A stretch of 64,000 bases of DNA. Origin: Mucilaginibacter arboris. Lineage in GTDB: Bacteria > Bacteroidota > Bacteroidia > Sphingobacteriales > Sphingobacteriaceae. Shown here piece by piece: positions 2,136-11,124 of the stretch. The stretch is from positions 124,001 through 188,000 of the forward strand of contig NZ_WPIK01000009.1 in NCBI RefSeq assembly GCF_009754915.1, in the 5' to 3' direction. Positions within the stretch are counted from its first letter, which is position 1, and each line of letters opens with the position of its first letter. A program made the translations under genes and the position numbers. Under the pieces are notes generated by a model. That model was not told the origin of the DNA, did no database searches, and saw only the letters and a list, made by a program, of their open reading frames with translations.

Positions 2136-2720
2136 TCATTTATGCCTGCTTTCTAAATTCCTGGCAATTTTTTCTAAGCTGATGTTTTTCTCCCGAAGCA
2201 AGAACAGCAGGTGAAAAACAAGATCTGATGCTTCGTTTACCAGGTCAAATTCTGTTTCTGCTAAAGCAGCAATTACCGTTTCAACGCCTTCTTCGCCAAC
2301 TTTTTGCGCAATTTTGTTTAAACCTTTCTGGCGCATTTTATTGATGTACGAACCTTCATGCGGGTTTTCGTAACGATCCTGGATAATGTTTTCCAGCTCC
2401 AGGATAAAATTCTGGTTGTACTCCGTTTTAAAACAACTGCGGGAACCAGTATGGCAGGTTGGGCCTTCAGCTTTTACTTTGATCAGGACCGTATCCTGGT
2501 CGCAGTCCAGATATACTTCTTTTACATGCAAAAAGTTGCCGCTGGTTTCGCCTTTGGTCCACAAGCGGTTTTTTGAGCGGGAAAAGAAAGTCACGATTTT
2601 TTCTGCCTGGGTTTTATCATAAGCTTCCTGGTCCATGTAGCCCAGCATCAGCACTTCCAGCGTTTGTTCATCCTGAACGATAACAGGAACGAGGCCAGTA
2701 TTTTTATCGAAATTCATCAT
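2136..2720 (-). CDS. hisIE: HisIE: phosphoribosyl-AMP cyclohydrolase / phosphoribosyl-ATP pyrophosphatase
   Basis: A 194-residue fusion catalysing the second and third steps of histidine synthesis. The N-terminal HisI domain (about 1-105) carries the metal-binding DCDQD and the Cys motif TCHTGSRSCF. The C-terminal HisE domain (about 110-190) has the MazG-like EEGVETVIAA and ASDLVFHLLFLL motifs. It is the last gene of the his operon, 34 bp after hisF. The gap holds a copy of the dispersed motif (2731-2742). Either of two adjacent ATGs could be the start. Confidence 0.95.
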   Translation of the reverse strand: MMNFDKNTGLVPVIVQDEQTLEVLMLGYMDQEAYDKTQAEKIVTFFSRSKNRLWTKGETSGNFLHVKEVYLDCDQDTVLIKVKAEGPTCHTGSRSCFKTEYNQNFILELENIIQDRYENPHEGSYINKMRQKGLNKIAQKVGEEGVETVIAALAETEFDLVNEASDLVFHLLFLLREKNISLEKIARNLESRHK

Positions 2721-2754
2721 TTTTATGCCCTAAAAGAAGTATTGATTTTTTGAT

Positions 2755-3549
2755 TTATAATCTTACTTCTATCTGGTTATTTTTTAAAGTTTGCTTTAAA
2801 TCGGGAATTAAAATCTCACCATAATGGAAAACGGAAGCGGCCAAGGCAGCATCAACACCGGCATCTTTAAAAACATCTACAAAATGCTGCTGGTTACCTG
2901 CCCCGCCCGAAGCAATCAGCGGAATGCCGATCTGATTGTTAACCTGCTTTAAAAACCCGCAATCAAAACCGGCTTTCGTTCCATCATGATCCATAGAAGT
3001 TAACAGGATTTCTCCTGCGCCACGGCTTTCTGCTTCTTTTATCCACTTAAAAGTTTCGTGTTCGGTTGCGATACGGCCACCGTTTAAATGAACTAAGTTC
3101 TGGTTGCCAACACAACGTGTATCAACTGCAATAACAACAAACTGAACACCGAAAGTTTTAGCAAGCTGATCGATCAATTCAGGATTACGAACAGCAGCCG
3201 AATTGATGGAAATTTTATCAGCACCAGAATTAAGCAAGATATCAGCATCAGCAATTTCGTTAATGCCGCCGCCAATGGTAAAAGGAATATTCACATTTCG
3301 GGCAACTGCTTTTACCAGTTCTACCATCGTTTTACGCCGTTCGTATGTGGCTGTGATGTCGAGAAAAACCAGTTCATCAGCACCTTGCTGCGAATATTGC
3401 CAGGCCAGTTCTACCGGATCGCCGGCATCACGCAAATCAACAAAATTAACGCCTTTTACCGTGCGGCCATCTTTTACATCCAGGCAGGGAACGATGCGTT
3501 TGGCCAAGTTCCCGGAAGGAGAATTTTTAGATAAATTTATTTCTTCCAA
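2755..3549 (-). CDS. hisF: HisF, cyclase subunit of imidazole glycerol phosphate synthase
   Basis: A (beta/alpha)8 barrel of 264 residues. The N-terminal catalytic Asp is in CLDVKDG and the second is in AVDTR. HisF works with the glutaminase HisH to turn PRFAR and ammonia into imidazole glycerol phosphate and AICAR. The family usually begins about one residue before LAKRI; here the ATG at 3549 adds some 14 residues ([14 protein letters not shown]). A TTG at 3507 sits exactly where the family starts, so the true start is uncertain. It is separated from hisA by an inserted hydrolase gene. Confidence 0.95.
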
Positions 3550-3618
3550 AATTTGGTTTTATATCGAATTAAAATCATAATAAATATTTAACTGACACAG
3601 CTTATTTTACACGCTCAT

Positions 3619-4908
3619 TTAATTGTTCTGATCGAAAAAATTCAATACGGTCTGGTTAAACAACTGTGGAATTTTTTGTGGGGCTTCATGATCCGCGCCT
3701 TTAAAAATAACCAGTTTACTATGTGTGATTTTTTCTGCAATTAGTTTAGTATGTTTTTCTTTAACTACATCATATTGGCCGGCCATTACTAATGTCGGCG
3801 ATTGTATTTTTTGTAAAGAATCTGGATTGATATGTGGCTCTGTTAACAAAAGAATTTTTAATCGATAATCCATATTAGTTTTTGGCACACCTTTATCTTC
3901 CATTTCATTTACTTGTTTATGAATTAGTTTGTTAGTTTCAGCAGTAACAGAACTAATATCATTATACAGAACAGTTCCCATAACTGCCATTTTATTCACC
4001 TTATCAGGATGTTGCATTGCCAATATTAGGGCTATATTTCCTCCATCACTCCAGCCTAATATGTTTACATTTTTCAACAGCATTTTATCCAAAAAAGTAT
4101 TCACGTCTTCTGCCATTAGTTCATAAGTGAGTTTGGTGTCATTAGCTGAAGACTTACCTTGTCCTCTACTATCTAAGCCAATTACCATATATTTTTTACT
4201 CAAGATATCTAATTGGTTACTAAAACTATTCATCGAGGAATTATTTCCGTGAAGTAATAATAAAGGTTTACCTTTTCCATATATCTCGTAATACAGTTTA
4301 ATACCATTAACATCGATATATTTACCGTGTTCAGGATTGTTTCCAAGGGTTGGCGCAACTTTTACGTTTGAATTGTCTACAAACAAGGATTGTTTACCTG
4401 AAAATACTTTATCCTTAGATAAAGACAATTTAGTGTTTTTATCAATGTTATAAGATTGCCAATTTGTGATGGAATCATCTTCAAAATCTGAATTTTTTAA
4501 AGGAATTTCAACCTTGTTTTTTCCTTCTTTTACAAAAAGTTTAAAGTTATCTAAATAATAGCTACCGTTACCAGCAATAGCAACACCTATTGCAAAATAT
4601 TTTGCATTTCTATCAATTTTGCCCGCAAGCTCATATGAGCTCCAATCGTCCTGTTTATAATAGTCTGACGCGCTATCATTATATAAAGATGCCTTTATAG
4701 GTTTGTTTTTATTGTCAATAGAAACAGTTGTTAACACTAACCAGGAATCACGATCAATTTTATCTTTATACAGTATTTTTCCTTCAAAGATGAAATTTTT
4801 GCCTTGATATTTTTCAATATTAACTGTTTGAAAAATTTGATAAAATTGTCCATAGGTTTTAAAAGAGACCATGAAAAATAGCAGGATAATATATTTATAA
4901 TATGACAC
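3619..4908 (-). CDS. Exported alpha/beta hydrolase with N-terminal beta-rich domain, inserted in the his operon
   Basis: The 429-residue product has a signal peptide (MSYYKYIILLFFMVSFKTYG), a beta-rich region (about 22-195) that resembles a carbohydrate-binding jelly roll, and an alpha/beta hydrolase domain (about 205-429). The hydrolase has the oxyanion motif LLLHGNN, nucleophile elbow GWSDGG, acid Asp in GQYDVV and catalytic His in GADHEAP. The substrate is unknown; it could be an ester or peptide hydrolase. It lies between hisA and hisF with unusually long spacers (227 and 69 bp) and looks more AT-rich than its neighbours, which suggests later insertion. It has no evident role in histidine synthesis. 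Confidence 0.8.
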   Translation of the reverse strand: MSYYKYIILLFFMVSFKTYGQFYQIFQTVNIEKYQGKNFIFEGKILYKDKIDRDSWLVLTTVSIDNKNKPIKASLYNDSASDYYKQDDWSSYELAGKIDRNAKYFAIGVAIAGNGSYYLDNFKLFVKEGKNKVEIPLKNSDFEDDSITNWQSYNIDKNTKLSLSKDKVFSGKQSLFVDNSNVKVAPTLGNNPEHGKYIDVNGIKLYYEIYGKGKPLLLLHGNNSSMNSFSNQLDILSKKYMVIGLDSRGQGKSSANDTKLTYELMAEDVNTFLDKMLLKNVNILGWSDGGNIALILAMQHPDKVNKMAVMGTVLYNDISSVTAETNKLIHKQVNEMEDKGVPKTNMDYRLKILLLTEPHINPDSLQKIQSPTLVMAGQYDVVKEKHTKLIAEKITHSKLVIFKGADHEAPQKIPQLFNQTVLNFFDQNN

Positions 4909-5135
4909 GGTCGATATGAAAAAGTGGTAAAATTATTTATCAGGTGATTTTATACTTTGGGTAATTGAAAAAAAAAAATATTTATAAGTTGGCAATTTCA
5001 AGATTTTGGGCCTTCGCTTAAAAATTCAAAAGTAAGTAATTGGTCACCTGCTTTAATCTCATACCGGCCAAGTTTCATGTATCAATGATCAATACGAGCG
5101 TAAATAGTTCAATTGAAAAAATAGATCGAAAGGCC

Positions 5136-5885
5136 TCACAAACTTGCCATCGCCTTTAAGTTCCATTCTTTAATTTCCTCTACCGAAATATGGTTTTCAT
5201 AAATCGCTTTACCAACCACGCAGGATTCAACGTTAATATGGCTTAGTTTTTTAATGTCGTCCATCGAACTAACGCCGCCTGAAGCAATCAGTTTTATAAA
5301 AGGAGAGTGGTCAAGTAATTTTTTGTACAATTCGACTCCGGCGCCGCCTAATTTTCCATCTTTATTAATATCAGTACATAAAAACCTGAAAAAGCCTAAA
5401 GACAGGCAACGATCAACATAATCCAAAAGTTTAACCGGCGAACTTTCCATCCAGCCGGAATATTTAATCACTTCATCCAGTACATCAATCGCAATTACAA
5501 CATGGTCGGCACACTTGGTTTTACCCACTAATTCTGTACTTAATTCATCTAAAAAAGTAGGATTGGTAATGGCTTGCGTACCTACAATAACGCGGTAAAT
5601 GCCTGCTTCGAGCAGTTCTTTTACCTTATCAATGCTCCGGACGCCGCCACCATATTGAACTTTCATAGAAGTTTTATGAATGATTTCTGCCAGATATTCC
5701 TGGTTGCTAAAATCACCTTTAGCACCATTCAGATCAATAATATGGATAAAATCAGTTCCGTTAGATTGGTATCTTTCAATCATTTCTTCCAAAGTAACCT
5801 CATAATTGGTCACCTGGCCATAGTCGCCTTCACGTAAACGAACTACTTTTTTGTTTAAAATATCAATTGCAGGAATGATATACAT
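5136..5885 (-). CDS. hisA: HisA, ProFAR isomerase
   Basis: A 249-residue (beta/alpha)8 barrel, about the family's usual length. It converts ProFAR to PRFAR. The catalytic Asp pair is in PAIDIL near the N-terminus and in CTDINKDG around residue 175. The conserved start MYIIPAIDI is the ATG at 5885; an upstream in-frame ATG at 5900 would add MLKNK and shares its A with the hisH stop (TAATG). Either start keeps it tightly coupled to hisH. Confidence 0.95.
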   Translation of the reverse strand: MYIIPAIDILNKKVVRLREGDYGQVTNYEVTLEEMIERYQSNGTDFIHIIDLNGAKGDFSNQEYLAEIIHKTSMKVQYGGGVRSIDKVKELLEAGIYRVIVGTQAITNPTFLDELSTELVGKTKCADHVVIAIDVLDEVIKYSGWMESSPVKLLDYVDRCLSLGFFRFLCTDINKDGKLGGAGVELYKKLLDHSPFIKLIASGGVSSMDDIKKLSHINVESCVVGKAIYENHISVEEIKEWNLKAMASL

Positions 5886-5899
5886 TTTATTTTTTAGCA

Positions 5900-6490
5900 T
5901 TAAAGGTGAGCAAAGTTTTTTAACAAGGTTTCGCCGGCTGAACCAGATTTTTCGGGATGGAATTGCACACCAAAGAAATTATCTTTACGGATAGCAGCCG
6001 AAAATTCAATGCCGTATTGCGTTGATGCTAAAGTATATAAATTATTGTACTCAATAAAATAAGAATGTACAAAGTAAAAATAAGCATCTTGATCGATGCC
6101 TTTAAACAGATCGTCTGTTTCCCGTGAATAAACACGGTTCCAACCGGTATGCGGTACTTTCAGGCTGGTATCTTCCTGAAAACGCAGTGTTTTTACCGGA
6201 ACAATATTCAATAAACCTGCATTTCCTTCCTCAGAAAACGCAGTGATGAGCTGCATGCCCACGCAAACGCCTAAAACAGGTTTTTTAAGTTGTCTGATTG
6301 CCGGGACCAGGCCTGTATTTTCCAGTTTTCCCATGGCTGCGCCTGCATGGCCAACACCGGGAATAATATAGCGGTCGTACTGCTCAAAGTCACTTTCGTG
6401 CGAAATCATGCCGTATCGAATCCCTAAACGATCAAGTGCAGCAGTTAATGAAAAAATGTTTCCGGCGCCGTATTGAATAATTCCAATCAT
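5900..6490 (-). CDS. hisH: HisH, glutaminase subunit of imidazole glycerol phosphate synthase
   Basis: A class I glutamine amidotransferase of 196 residues. The nucleophile Cys is in GVCVGMQ and the His/Glu pair in VQFHPEKSG. It supplies ammonia to HisF. It precedes hisA with overlapping stop and start codons, and follows hisB after a 91-bp spacer filled by a palindromic repeat. hisF, its partner subunit, lies two genes downstream, beyond hisA and the inserted hydrolase. Confidence 0.95.
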   Translation of the reverse strand: MIGIIQYGAGNIFSLTAALDRLGIRYGMISHESDFEQYDRYIIPGVGHAGAAMGKLENTGLVPAIRQLKKPVLGVCVGMQLITAFSEEGNAGLLNIVPVKTLRFQEDTSLKVPHTGWNRVYSRETDDLFKGIDQDAYFYFVHSYFIEYNNLYTLASTQYGIEFSAAIRKDNFFGVQFHPEKSGSAGETLLKNFAHL

Positions 6491-6491
6491 T

Positions 6492-6592
6492 TTTTAGGTG
6501 TGAGGTTAGAGGTGTGAGGTAAGAGGTGTGAGGTTTAAGGTGCGAACCTTTGGCTCAAACCCCTTACCTCAAACCTCCCACCTAAAGCACTC
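6492..6592. repeat. Palindromic intergenic repeat with GAGGT-rich arms
   Basis: The spacer between hisB and hisH consists of several copies of a TAGGTGTGAGGT-like unit followed by the opposite-strand complement (CCTTACCTCAAACCTCCCACCTAA), so the ends pair as a long imperfect hairpin. The hisB stop codon TAG (6584-6582) lies within the right arm. A related inverted repeat occurs inside valS (22868-23001). Confidence 0.7.
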
Positions 6593-7721
6593 CTTTTGTA
6601 CTTGGTAAAACCATGTTATTTACATCACGTTTTACAGCCATTTTTATGGCTTTTGCAAACGCTTTAAAAATAGATTCTATTTTATGATGTTCGTTTTCGC
6701 CTTCTGCTTTAATGTTTAAGTTGCATTTGGCAGCATCAGAAAAGGATTTGAAAAAATGATAAAACATTTCTGTTGGCATTTCCCCGATTTTTTCCCGGTT
6801 AAAAACAGCATCCCAAACAATCCAGTTTCGTCCGCCAAAATCTATCGCCACTTGTGCCAGGCAATCATCCATCGGCAGTAAAAAGCCGTAACGTTCGATA
6901 CCTTTTTTATCACCTAAAACTTTTAAAAAAGCTTCGCCTAAAGCAATTCCGGTATCTTCTATGGTATGATGTTCGTCGATATGTAGATCTCCTTTTGTTG
7001 TAATTTCCAGATCAATACTTCCATGTTTAGCAATCTGATCTAACATGTGATCGAAGAAGTGTAAACCAGTAGAAACGTTCGATTCGCCTTTTCCATCCAG
7101 GTTTAGTTTGATAAAAATATCTGTTTCTTTAGTTGATCTTTTGTGTTCAATTTCACGCTGGCCTAACTTTAAAAACTCGTAAATCTTTTCCCATTCTGCC
7201 GTTTCTAAAGCAATAGTTGGTTTTAATTCTTCCGGGTTTTGATTTGCGAATTCTGATCCGCCTAAATTGGTTTGACTATTTAACCAAATTGCTTTTGCGC
7301 CTAAGTTTTTTGCCAGTAAAACATCGTTTAATCGATCGCCAATAACGAACGAATTTTTAAGGTCATATTCATCCCTGTCAAAATATTTAGTCAGTAAAGC
7401 GGTTCCAGGTTTCCGCGTTGGCGCGTTATCTTTTGTAAAAGTGCGGTCAATTATCATATCCGAAAATTCTACACCTTCATTTTTTAATGTGTGAAGGATG
7501 AAATTTTGGACCGGCCAAAAAGTATTTTCGGGATAAACCGCTGTTCCTAAACCATCCTGATTGCTCACCATTACCAGTTCAAAATCTAATTCTTTGGCAA
7601 TTTTTGGCAGGTATTGAAGCATTTTCGGATAAAATTCCAGCTTAGCAAAAGAATCGATTTGTTCATCTTCCGGTTCTGTAATCAAAGTTCCGTCACGGTC
7701 AATAAATAAGAGTTTTTTCAT
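6582..7721 (-). CDS. hisB: HisB, histidinol-phosphatase / imidazole glycerol phosphate dehydratase
   Basis: A bifunctional enzyme of 379 residues from the ATG at 7721. The N-terminal HAD phosphatase has FIDRDGTL. The C-terminal dehydratase has the metal-binding His clusters [24 protein letters not shown] and [14 protein letters not shown]. The ATG overlaps the hisC stop (ATGA); a longer frame to 7802 runs into hisC and lacks family similarity. A copy of the sister 12-mer TAAAAACAGCAT lies inside at 6800-6811. The stop codon is supplied by the adjoining repeat. Confidence 0.95.
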
Positions 7722-8770
7722 GCCTGAAAATTTTTCAAGGAGTTTAAAAGCTGTTCGTTTTCTATCGGTGTCCCAATCGTAATCCGTAGGCAGCCTTCGC
7801 AAAGTTCTACTTTAGAACGGTCCCGAACAATGATTCCTTTTTCTACCAGAAACTGGTAAACAGCTTTTGGCGATGCTGTTTTTACCAGTATAAAATTAGC
7901 ATCAGATGGAAAGATGTCGATTACAAAGCTAAAGTTTTTCAAACCGAGCACTAACTTATCACGTTCTTTTAGTGTTTCTTTAATCCACTGGTTTACCTGA
8001 TCGATGTTATCCAAAGCCTGCAAGGCTAATTTTTGTGAAGCCTCATTAATATTGTAAGGAGGTTTTACACGGTTAAAAACTTCGATAATTTCTTCGGAAG
8101 CAAAAGCCATTCCAATGCGTAAACCAGCTAAACCCCATGCCTTCGAAAGCGTTTGCAAAACCACAAGGTTGCCGTATTCTGTTAGTTCCTGGATAAAACT
8201 TTTCTGGCGGCTGTAATTGATATAAGCTTCATCAACCACTACAATTCCATTAAAATTGGCAAGTAGCGTTTCCACATCTTCCCGGTTAATTGAGTTGCCC
8301 GTTGGATTGTTTGGTGAGCAGATAAAGATCAGTTTGGTATTGGCATCTATCGCTTCTGCAATTCCTTCCAGGTTTAACTGATATTCTGGTGTAAGCGGAA
8401 CCTTTTTTACAGCCACATCATTAATGTTGGCCGAAACCTGGTACATGCCATAAGTTGGCGGAACGAGAACGACGTTATCGATTCCGGGCCGACAAAAGCT
8501 TCTGAATAAAATATCAATTGCTTCATCGCTGCCGTTTCCCAAAAAAATATTTCTGGGCGGTACTCCTTTTATGGCAGTAATTTTCTTTTTTACTTCCAAT
8601 TGAAGCGGATCCGGATAACGGTTGTAATTATCTTCTAACGGAGAACCGTAAGCGTTTTCGTTAGCATCTAAATAAACGCTTGCTTCGCCTTGAAATTCAT
8701 CGCGCGCGGAAGAATAAGGCGTGAGGTTTTTTATATTTTCCCGGAGGAGGTTTTGGAGATTGAAATTCAT
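7718..8770 (-). CDS. hisC: HisC, histidinol-phosphate aminotransferase
   Basis: A fold-type I PLP aminotransferase of about 350 residues that transaminates imidazole acetol phosphate to histidinol phosphate. Visible features are [12 protein letters not shown] near the N-terminus, [20 protein letters not shown] and the PLP-lysine segment [16 protein letters not shown]. The ATG at 8770 (MNFNLQNLL) is the likely start; an extension to 8803 would run into the palindromic repeat between hisD and hisC. The stop overlaps the hisB start. Confidence 0.95.
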
Positions 8771-8784
8771 TTTTGTGTTTTTAT

Positions 8785-8812
8785 GTAGAGACGTTCCATG
8801 CAACGTCTCTAC
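8785..8812. repeat. Perfect palindromic repeat at the hisD/hisC junction
   Basis: GTAGAGACGTT (8785-8795) and AACGTCTCTAC (8802-8812) form an 11-bp perfect stem with a 6-nt loop. Very similar TAGAGACG palindromes are widespread intergenic repeats in several bacterial phyla. The hisD stop TAG (8811-8809) lies in the right arm, so the element defines the C-terminus of HisD. Confidence 0.8.
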
Positions 8813-10092
8813 GTACGTACCGAAACCGCGTTTTTATGCGCCTGCAAACCTTCCAGTTCTGCTAATATTTCTACTGTTTTTCCAATGCTTTTTATTCCTT
8901 CCGAAGTTAAATGCTGAAACGTGATCTTCTTCACAAAAGAATCAACCGAAACACCGGAATAAGCACGTGCATAAGCGCTGGTAGGCAAAGTATGATTGGT
9001 TCCGGAAGCATAATCGCCGGCACTTTCCGGCGTTAAATTCCCAAGGAAAACAGAACCGGCATTGATTATTTTTTCAGTTATCAGTTTCCAGTTGTCGGTT
9101 GCGAGTATTAAATGCTCTGGCGCGTATTGGTTGCTGAAATCCATCGCCTCCAATAAATCAGCGGTAAAAACAGCATAAGAATTAGCAATTGCTTTTTTAG
9201 TGATTTCTGAACGCGGCAAAATTGGTAACTGTTTTTCCAGTTCAGCAATCGTTTCATCAATCAGTTGTTGAGAAGTGGAAACCAAAACCGATTGACTATC
9301 TACACCATGTTCTGCCTGCGCTAATAAATCCGCAGCAACAAAAACCGGGTTGGCACTTTCATCAGCAATAATTAAAACTTCTGACGGGCCGGCCGGCATA
9401 TCAATTGCCGTTACTGTTGTTGATTGGATAATCGTTTTGGCTTTGGTTACATATTGGTTTCCCGGCCCAAAAATCTTATCCACCTTCGGGATGCTTTCCG
9501 TTCCGTAAGCCATTGCCGCAACCGCTTGTGCGCCTCCAACTAAAAACACTTCTTTTACGCCTAATAATTGGGCAACAAAAGCAATAAAAGGATTGATTTT
9601 CCCGTCTTTTTGCGGTGGTGAACAAACCACAATTTCTTTACAGCCTGCAATTTTTGCCGGAATGCCTAACATTAAAAATGTACTTGGCAAAACAGCCGTG
9701 CCGCCGGGAATGTACAGACCAACTTTTTCAATTGGCCGCAATTCGCGCCAGCAGGTTACGCCGGGCATTGTTTCTACTTTTTCTTCTTGGCGGAATTGCG
9801 TTTTATGGAATTTATAAATGTTCTGGTATGCTGTTTTTATCGCCTCTTTTTGTTCATCAGAAACCCGTTCAGTTAATTTGGCTAACTCGTTTTCATCCGT
9901 AAACAAATTATCGAGCGTTACTTTATCAAATTGTAAAGCATACTCACGCAAAGCGACATCGCCGTTTTGTTTAACATTTGCTAAAATATTTTCTACCGTT
10001 TCCCGGATTTCATTTCCTGCATCCGTATTTCGAAGCGTTAACTTTTGTATTTCAGTTGCAGAAAGCTGGTTGTAATTATAAACTTTTAACAT
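8809..10092 (-). CDS. hisD: HisD, histidinol dehydrogenase
   Basis: A 427-residue zinc-dependent NAD+ oxidoreductase that oxidises histidinol to histidine in two steps. Visible motifs are FGPGNQYVTKAK, MPAGPSEVL, AEHGVDSQS (zinc ligand His), YAPEHL and GDYASGTNHTLPT, all in family order. The last few residues and stop are contributed by a palindromic repeat. Sister-motif copies lie inside it at 9165-9176 and 9828-9839. It follows hisG by 32 bp. Confidence 0.95.
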   Translation of the reverse strand: MLKVYNYNQLSATEIQKLTLRNTDAGNEIRETVENILANVKQNGDVALREYALQFDKVTLDNLFTDENELAKLTERVSDEQKEAIKTAYQNIYKFHKTQFRQEEKVETMPGVTCWRELRPIEKVGLYIPGGTAVLPSTFLMLGIPAKIAGCKEIVVCSPPQKDGKINPFIAFVAQLLGVKEVFLVGGAQAVAAMAYGTESIPKVDKIFGPGNQYVTKAKTIIQSTTVTAIDMPAGPSEVLIIADESANPVFVAADLLAQAEHGVDSQSVLVSTSQQLIDETIAELEKQLPILPRSEITKKAIANSYAVFTADLLEAMDFSNQYAPEHLILATDNWKLITEKIINAGSVFLGNLTPESAGDYASGTNHTLPTSAYARAYSGVSVDSFVKKITFQHLTSEGIKSIGKTVEILAELEGLQAHKNAVSVRT

Positions 10093-10124: not shown

Positions 10125-10976
10125 TTACAGGATGATTTTTTCTATCGGCATCACCACAATTCCTTGTGCGCCAGCAGCTTTTAACTGGCTGATTTTGTTC
10201 CAGAAATCTCGTTCAGGAATTACCGTATGGACGGCAACCCAGCCGCTTTCTGCCAATGGCAAAACACTCGGGCTTTTGACGCCTGGCAGCAGTTTCAGTA
10301 TTTCTGGCAAACATTCCTGCGAAACATTTAACACCACATATTTCGTTTCTTTAGCCCGCAAAACTGATTGGATGCGCTGAATTAGATCCTGAACGTGCTC
10401 GTGGTTTTCTTCGCCTTTTCTGCCAATTAAAACCGCTTCCGAAGAAATGACATCAGCAAAAGGCTTCAAACCGTTGCTTTTTAAAGTGCCTCCGGTAGAA
10501 ACAATATCGAAAATAGCATCGCTTAAACCCAGGCCCGGACTAATTTCTACCGAGCCGGAAATGGTACGGATATCAGCCGAAATTTTGTTTTCTCTTAGGA
10601 ATTTATCTAAAATAACAGGGTAGGAAGTGGCAATAGATTTTCCTTCTAACTGTTTTAGTTCTTCAATTTCACTTCCGTTTGGCAATGCTATTTTTAGCGT
10701 GCATTTTCCAAAACCTAAACGTTGCAGGTAACTTACGTCAACTTCGGTTTCCATGATTACGTTTTCGCCAACAATTCCTAAATCTGCAATGCCGTCCTGC
10801 ACGTATTCCGGAATGTCATCATCGCGCAAAAACAAAATTTCCAGTGGAAAATTGGAAACAGGAGAAATGAGTGAGCTTTTATAATTTTCGAAAGATAATC
10901 CGCAGTTTTTTAATAATTCAACAGACTTTTCGTTGAGGCGGCCAGATTTCTGGATCGCTATTTTAAGTGGTTTCAA
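10125..10976 (-). CDS. hisG: HisG, ATP phosphoribosyltransferase (long form)
   Basis: First enzyme of histidine synthesis, joining ATP and PRPP. At 283 residues it is the long HisG type, with a C-terminal ACT-like regulatory domain (about 205-283, VAVHTVIPERDFWNKI, AQGIVVMPIEKII) that binds histidine for feedback inhibition. There is therefore no need for HisZ. It is the first structural gene of the operon, 53 bp after the hisL leader stop, so it is probably under both attenuation and allosteric control. Confidence 0.95.
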   Translation of the reverse strand: MKPLKIAIQKSGRLNEKSVELLKNCGLSFENYKSSLISPVSNFPLEILFLRDDDIPEYVQDGIADLGIVGENVIMETEVDVSYLQRLGFGKCTLKIALPNGSEIEELKQLEGKSIATSYPVILDKFLRENKISADIRTISGSVEISPGLGLSDAIFDIVSTGGTLKSNGLKPFADVISSEAVLIGRKGEENHEHVQDLIQRIQSVLRAKETKYVVLNVSQECLPEILKLLPGVKSPSVLPLAESGWVAVHTVIPERDFWNKISQLKAAGAQGIVVMPIEKIIL

Positions 10977-10996
10977 TGGGTTGTGGGTTGGGTAAC

Positions 10997-11076
10997 AAAA
11001 AAAGAATTAATATTTCGTGCAAAACTTGATCAAACTTGGGTTGAATGATGGTGATGATGCAGATAAATGAAATATT
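10997..11076 (-). promoter_or_regulatory. Candidate his attenuator pairing region
   Basis: Within hisL, AATATTTC (11076-11069) is an exact complement of GAAATATT (11016-11009), which lies downstream of the leader stop and just before a T7 run (11003-10997). Pairing of the two could act in transcription termination or its alternative, depending on where the ribosome stalls at the His codons. No strong GC-rich terminator stem is visible, so the mechanism is inferred. Confidence 0.4.
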
Positions 11077-11083
11077 TTTTCAT
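11030..11083 (-). CDS. hisL: hisL, histidine operon leader peptide
   Basis: A 17-codon reading frame, MKKYFIYLHHHHHSTQV, with five consecutive His codons (CAT CAT CAC CAT CAT, 11059-11045), ending 53 bp before hisG. A His-run leader in this position is the hallmark of ribosome-mediated attenuation: scarce charged tRNA-His stalls translation and favours read-through into the operon. A TAnnTTTG promoter box lies 33 nt upstream. A longer overlapping frame (11007-11192) is in a different phase and not credible. Confidence 0.9.
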   Translation of the reverse strand: MKKYFIYLHHHHHSTQV

Positions 11084-11116: not shown

Positions 11117-11124
11117 CAAATATA
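11117..11124 (-). promoter_or_regulatory. -7 box of the his operon promoter
   Basis: TATATTTG on the minus strand matches the Bacteroidota -7 consensus TAnnTTTG. The -33 element is weak (TTTT at a 19-bp spacing). A start about 7 nt downstream would give a short leader before the hisL ATG at 11083. Confidence 0.6.

Follow-up and report, generated by a model that had tools for sequence, protein, structure and literature searches.

The 64,000-nt stretch of Mucilaginibacter arboris DNA analyzed here (the window) carries a complete his operon, with the gene order hisG-hisD-hisC-hisB-hisH-hisA-(alpha/beta hydrolase)-hisF-hisIE as read from Pfam. The alpha/beta hydrolase gene (PF00561; 3619-4908, minus strand) stands within the operon between hisA and hisF. 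Upstream of hisG lies a short reading frame, MKKYFIYLHHHHHSTQV, the sole ATG ORF of 8-40 aa in the 64 kb that has four consecutive His residues. The named close relatives of the window are Sphingobacteriaceae, chiefly Mucilaginibacter, Pedobacter, and Daejeonella. The features are collected in Table 1, where P0 is a long-range helix and B a small hairpin.

Table 1. Features of the his leader and operon in the window
Feature	Position	Strand	Basis or remark
his leader ORF MKKYFIYLHHHHHSTQV	11030..11083	-	ATG at 11083, TGA ending 11030, 17 codons
His codons 9-13, CAT CAT CAC CAT CAT	11045..11059	-	sequence
Bacteroidota -7 promoter box TATATTTG (TAnnTTTG)	11117..11124	-	sequence; upstream of leader ORF
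P0 5' strand, GGG..AACAA..GAA..AATATTTC, includes leader start codon	11069..11095	-	window MFE; inner pairing; family co-variation
AATATTTC, inner P0 5' segment	11076-11069	-	sequence
Degenerate hairpin B, GTTTT-GCAC-GAAAT, 4 nt past leader stop	11012..11025	-	position match to relatives
P0 3' strand, GAAATATT..TTC..TTGTT..CCC, ends 14 nt before hisG start	10990..11016	-	window MFE; kept in three genus members
GAAATATT, complement of AATATTTC	11016-11009	-	sequence
T7 run	10997..11003	-	partly within P0; sequence, terminator scan
hisG, TTG start	10125..10976	-	PF01634 (E 1.2e-50), PF08029
hisD, hisC, hisB, hisH, hisA, (alpha/beta hydrolase), hisF, hisIE (operon remainder)	2136..10092	-	Pfam

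A Conserved Leader Peptide

A sequence-only reading of this DNA had proposed a his leader peptide with five His codons, lying between a TAnnTTTG box and hisG, and had suggested that the hisG upstream regions of relatives be compared. The comparison bears the proposal out. Every one of the 108 Sphingobacteriaceae hisG upstreams with sufficient sequence has a His-run short ORF, and the TAnnTTTG box, which in the window falls outside the segment that the reading had delimited, stands 5' of the leader in 139 of the family's 144 loci. Under a strict rule for a His-rich leader, 223 of 254 Bacteroidota hisG upstreams pass. Of the dinucleotide shuffles, 5 of 1270 do so; the same rule finds no leader on the antisense strand, none within hisG, and none farther upstream (0/172). 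The third positions of the His codons vary between CAT and CAC while histidine itself is maintained. A short ORF, codons for the product of the pathway, a place ahead of the first gene, and conservation are all found here, as they are in amino-acid leader peptides of the his type, and from these comparisons we regard it as near certain that a genuine his leader peptide precedes the operon. Because the leader is conserved across Bacteroidota loci, its origin lies at or near the base of the phylum.

At the gathering score the window leader has no match to His_leader, Bacteroid-trp, or any other Rfam family, and at E values up to 10 there are only chance-level matches to unrelated families. The full-text literature, with subscription papers outside the search, held no account of a his leader in Sphingobacteriaceae. 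Amino-acid attenuators were reportedly predicted in Bacteroidetes/Chlorobi by the Lyubetsky group in about 2010. Among more distant members of the phylum, nine loci have long His leaders (HHAHHGHHH) before hisG, and no strong terminator was found there.

Terminators in the Phylum and in the Family

Outside Sphingobacteriaceae, a strong hairpin (-8 kcal/mol or better) followed by a U-run comes after the leader in 81 of 98 Bacteroidota loci (median -16). Such strong intrinsic terminators, of which AACCCGTTTGAGTACATCAAACGGGTTTTTT and AGGCTTACC..GGTAAGCCTTTTTT are examples, occur in Bacteroidales-, Flavobacteria-, and Cytophaga-like loci, and the end of the leader pairs with the terminator 5' arm better than permuted partners do (-10.2 vs. 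-8.1, z -7.8, 62 dissimilar loci). By their predicted structures, the his leaders of these Bacteroidota are classic attenuators.

Sphingobacteriaceae are different. A scan between leader and hisG finds a hairpin plus U-run in none of 144 loci, even at -4 kcal/mol, and the leader end shows no antiterminator pairing with hairpin B (A3-B5 z +0.5, A3-B3 z +3.4), a result that rules out a classic 2:3 antiterminator. Both marks of a classic transcription attenuator, the intrinsic terminator and the leader-end antiterminator, are therefore missing from the his leaders of the family. Might the family simply do without GC-rich terminators in general? Its trp leaders rule this out: upstream of trpE in five Sphingobacteriaceae genomes, leaders with a WWW run have textbook GC-rich terminators. 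No WWW leader was found before trpE in three loci of the window's genus (L267, L269, and L271).

The sequence-only reading had also implied ribosome-mediated attenuation, in a possibly unusual structure where the complement of AATATTTC and a T7 run replaced the GC-rich terminator. We rejected AATATTTC/GAAATATT plus T7 as an intrinsic terminator, for the stem is A/U only, the loop is about 50 nt, and a 5-nt spacer precedes the T7; what had been taken for a terminator replacement is the inner part of P0, and the suspicion of an unusual switch was right. Of attenuation itself, a his leader and ribosome-mediated control have strong support, but with no terminator in 144 family loci, attenuation as transcription termination is unsupported, and control of hisG translation fits better.

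Other arrangements appear elsewhere in the collection. In five Flavobacteriaceae-like hisG upstreams, a strand that follows the terminator U-run, just before hisG, complements the terminator 5' arm; in one example, GATTTACTCAAAC (the pre-hisG strand) is complementary to GTTTGAGTAAATC (the terminator 5' arm), making a second competitor 3' of the terminator. A further terminator-less group (L124, L137, L138, L165, and L217) has leaders ending in HHFHHSS or similar; some have two hairpins, TTCCTC..GAGGAA at the stop, followed by a longer GGTGA..TCACC. Two ilvD upstreams have short ORFs rich in Ile, Val, and Leu, followed by GC-rich hairpins and T-runs, and are likely branched-chain leaders.

A Long-Range Helix Between Leader Start and hisG

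In Sphingobacteriaceae, P0 forms between a strand just 5' of hisG and the start region of the leader, which comprises the 5'UTR, the AUG, and the first codons. The two strands are wholly different in sequence among clades, and yet complementarity is maintained: ATTATTAAAAAGAC with GTCTTTTAATAAT in Pedobacter, TTAATCAGGAACCAA with TTGGTCTGATTAA in Daejeonella-like loci, and ACTATA..ATGAACGG with CCGTTTAT..TATAGT in Mucilaginibacter. RNAalifold on the whole-family alignment recovered hairpin B alone, missing P0 because its strands are too diverged to align, and we therefore compared the pairing energies of native and mismatched partners over dissimilar loci. (A Mucilaginibacter alignment, A1, in which a large part of the outer P0 strand is missing, was used only for hairpins A and B and a short flanking stem.)

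Over 43 dissimilar loci, the native P0 duplex averages -14.4 kcal/mol and mismatched partners -10.0 kcal/mol (z -9.8; 0/20000 permutations). Both the 5'UTR part (z -5.6) and the part around the start codon (z -7.3) add to this signal; two controls, the His-codon region (z +3.3) and the reversed strand (z -1.7), do not. Together with dinucleotide shuffles, these controls oppose base composition as the source of P0. The signal is present in both halves of the family taken separately (Mucilaginibacter-like loci z -3.1, other loci z -8.0) and is at most weak in other Bacteroidota (z -2.7 with a terminator, +0.5 without). The contacts come in the order of one helix: the B 3' arm (z -5.5) and the strand that follows it (z -4.4) pair with the leader start, and the distal P0 strand pairs with the 5'UTR (z -6.4), which does not pair with hairpin B (z +2.1). 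Individually, P0 falls within 1 sd of shuffles in 16 of the 43 loci, window included.

When the free RNA is folded, P0 has about 19 pairs on average. The leader AUG lies hidden in it, with a mean unpaired value of about 0.25, compared with 0.54 for the hisG start codon region. In many loci, about 10-15 nt separate the end of the helix from the hisG start codon, which P0 does not reach; in relatives, the U-rich stretch lies inside P0 and not 3' of it. A translational attenuator should have an alternative pairing that extends to the initiation region of the gene under control; P0 is such a pairing, although a weak one in the window. Loss of the terminator and gain of a long-range helix in Sphingobacteriaceae are, on these sequence comparisons, well supported.

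In the window itself, the MFE fold includes P0 (GGG/CCC, AACAA/TTGTT, GAA/TTC, and AATATTTC/GAAATATT), and the full fold is unexceptional (z -1.1). With the 3' strand shortened by 3 nt, whole-strand P0 ranks 29th of 43, no better than mismatched partners. Its inner, start-codon pairing beats 989 of 1000 shuffles (11 match it), and both arms of this inner part hardly vary in three genus members despite their differing 5'UTRs.

Two Hairpins, a Weak Start, and a Modelled Ribosome

Where the His run ends, the family has hairpin A, which reads ATCGCC..GGCGAT or ATCACCAC..GTGGTGAT (mean z -2.5); its strongest covarying pair is 93 percent complementary, with AU/GC exchange in Mucilaginibacter. Hairpin A was not found in the window's genus. 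Hairpin B is present in 37 of 41 Sphingobacteriaceae loci, reads GTTTC-TACGT-GAAAC or GTTTTG-TACGT-CAAAAC in relatives, and has a 5' arm that begins about 4 nt past the leader stop; of 98 closing pairs, 73 are CG and 17 GC. In the window, B is weak (z +0.1) and its 3' arm overlaps P0. Since the B 3' arm pairs within both B and P0, the two structures compete for it. With a weak P0 and a degenerate B, the window is best seen as a weakened or simplified member of its family, and our claim rests on the family-level evidence.

The hisG start codon also sets the family apart. GTG or TTG is the sole available start at the conserved hisG N-terminus in 139 of 149 Sphingobacteriaceae loci, as opposed to 6 of 109 other Bacteroidota loci, where 102 have ATG. 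In a model of ribosome occupancy, the hisG start site takes 5.0 kcal/mol to open; this cost falls to 3.3 kcal/mol (p 1e-5) once the leader AUG is covered, and to 4.3 kcal/mol (p 0.003) with one ribosome stalled and another queued behind it. A single ribosome on the His codons leaves the hisG start region unopened (5.0 to 4.9 kcal/mol), and the simple steric model, in which one stalled ribosome opens hisG, finds no support in these costs. The switch would therefore need queuing, B-first kinetics, or bulk that lies outside the model.

Discussion

How might a leader with a His run and no terminator regulate the genes behind it? We think it more probable than not, from the comparisons and the modelling, that it is a ribosome-sensed histidine switch whose output is hisG translation rather than a terminator. 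The leader RNA would have two mutually exclusive folds: a closed one, in which the leader AUG is masked within P0 and the helix crowds the initiation site of hisG with its weak GTG/TTG start, and an open one, in which formation of B removes its 3' arm from P0. When histidine is plentiful, a ribosome would get to the leader stop, where its front edge would cover the B 5' arm and leave the leader start free; P0 would then form, and little hisG would be translated. When charged tRNA-His is scarce, ribosomes would come to a halt in the His run, with others lining up behind them over the leader start; together these would block P0, and B would form and hisG be translated. This assignment of ribosome positions to folds is one that we infer, as is the last step, the translational output, which the pairing, the weak starts, and the modelled opening costs together make more likely than not. 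The weak hisG start codons could be unrelated to the switch.

There are other ways to read the same observations. Ribosome-mediated transcription attenuation could have been retained with termination that is Rho-dependent or occurs at a very weak A/U-rich site (B plus a U-run), and for that reason no classic terminator would be visible. This is the main rival, though unlikely in our judgment: the rest of the phylum attenuates transcription, Sphingobacterium and Pedobacter have GTTTTG-TACNT-CAAAAC with T4-T7 immediately after it, and C-rich, G-poor stretches lie downstream in the window and in Mucilaginibacter. Against it, most Sphingobacteriaceae have no U-run after B, the terminator scan of 144 loci came up empty, and no 2:3-type antiterminator pairs the leader end with B. 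Nor would the sign be right, since ribosome stalling would favor B and hence termination under starvation. P0, for its part, extends to the hisG start site, where a leader terminator would come too late.

Even less probable, and by a good deal, is that P0 mainly stops leader translation or alters the exposure or protection of the mRNA to nucleases, or that the leader boosts hisG by coupling or reinitiation. It is true that P0 conceals the leader AUG to a greater degree than it does the start codon region of hisG, and leader ORFs that boost downstream translation have been proposed (PMC4833913); however, leader stop and hisG are 53-78 nt apart in most loci, as against the 11-14 nt given for Bacteroidetes in that paper, and a His run kept phylum-wide demands a histidine-specific reason. 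As for the leader being a chance ORF without function, small size is the sole point for an idea that the conservation and synonymous CAT/CAC variation described above refute, and we give it virtually no credence. The best reading, on sequence and modelling, is that the Sphingobacteriaceae leader is a new version of his attenuation, ribosome-controlled and acting on hisG translation.

If so, how did the family arrive there? The classic his attenuator of other Bacteroidota, which shares with it a homologous position and a His leader and has the terminator and antiterminator that Sphingobacteriaceae are without, is presumably the ancestral form. We would put at even chances the proposal that the family turned this transcription attenuator purely translational, through loss of the terminator, pairing of the leader start upstream of hisG, and a GTG/TTG hisG, while its trp attenuator stayed transcriptional. 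If true, the family would offer a clear natural example of a leader-peptide sensor that was retained as its output shifted from transcription to translation. The mRNAs of this phylum are generally without Shine-Dalgarno control, so the rules by which RNA governs initiation there are little known, and a his leader found phylum-wide has had no curated RNA family.

Earlier work on the phylum touches this leader at several points. Flavobacteriaceae share a conserved structured element 5' of hisG, and in F. psychrophilum attenuation of amino-acid operons by leader peptides has been noted (PMC9723704). Bacteroid-trp RNA (RF01692) is a candidate cis-regulatory RNA of an amino-acid operon (PMC2864571). 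The Sphingobacteriaceae trp leaders, with their WWW ORF before trpE, retain a strong terminator, unlike the his leaders of the same family.

Beyond the phylum, the enterobacterial his attenuator (Rfam His_leader) likewise has a His-run ORF directly 5' of hisG in a full his operon, with exclusive folds; the Sphingobacteriaceae leader differs in having a long-range helix from leader start to hisG in place of a GC-rich terminator and leader-end antiterminator, and in having no Rfam match. The nearest precedent is the LEU element of Actinobacteria (PMC1262725), where Leu codons pair with the leuA Shine-Dalgarno box: it, too, combines an amino-acid run in the leader ORF with a base helix that reaches the translation start of the first gene, and has no terminator. 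In the his leader, by contrast, the strand upstream of hisG is paired by the start region and not by the His codons. Translational attenuators of the ermC/cat type sense an antibiotic and hide the start by local hairpins. There, as we propose here, whether the next start is hidden depends on where a ribosome stands in the leader ORF; the signal sensed is an antibiotic, not an amino acid.
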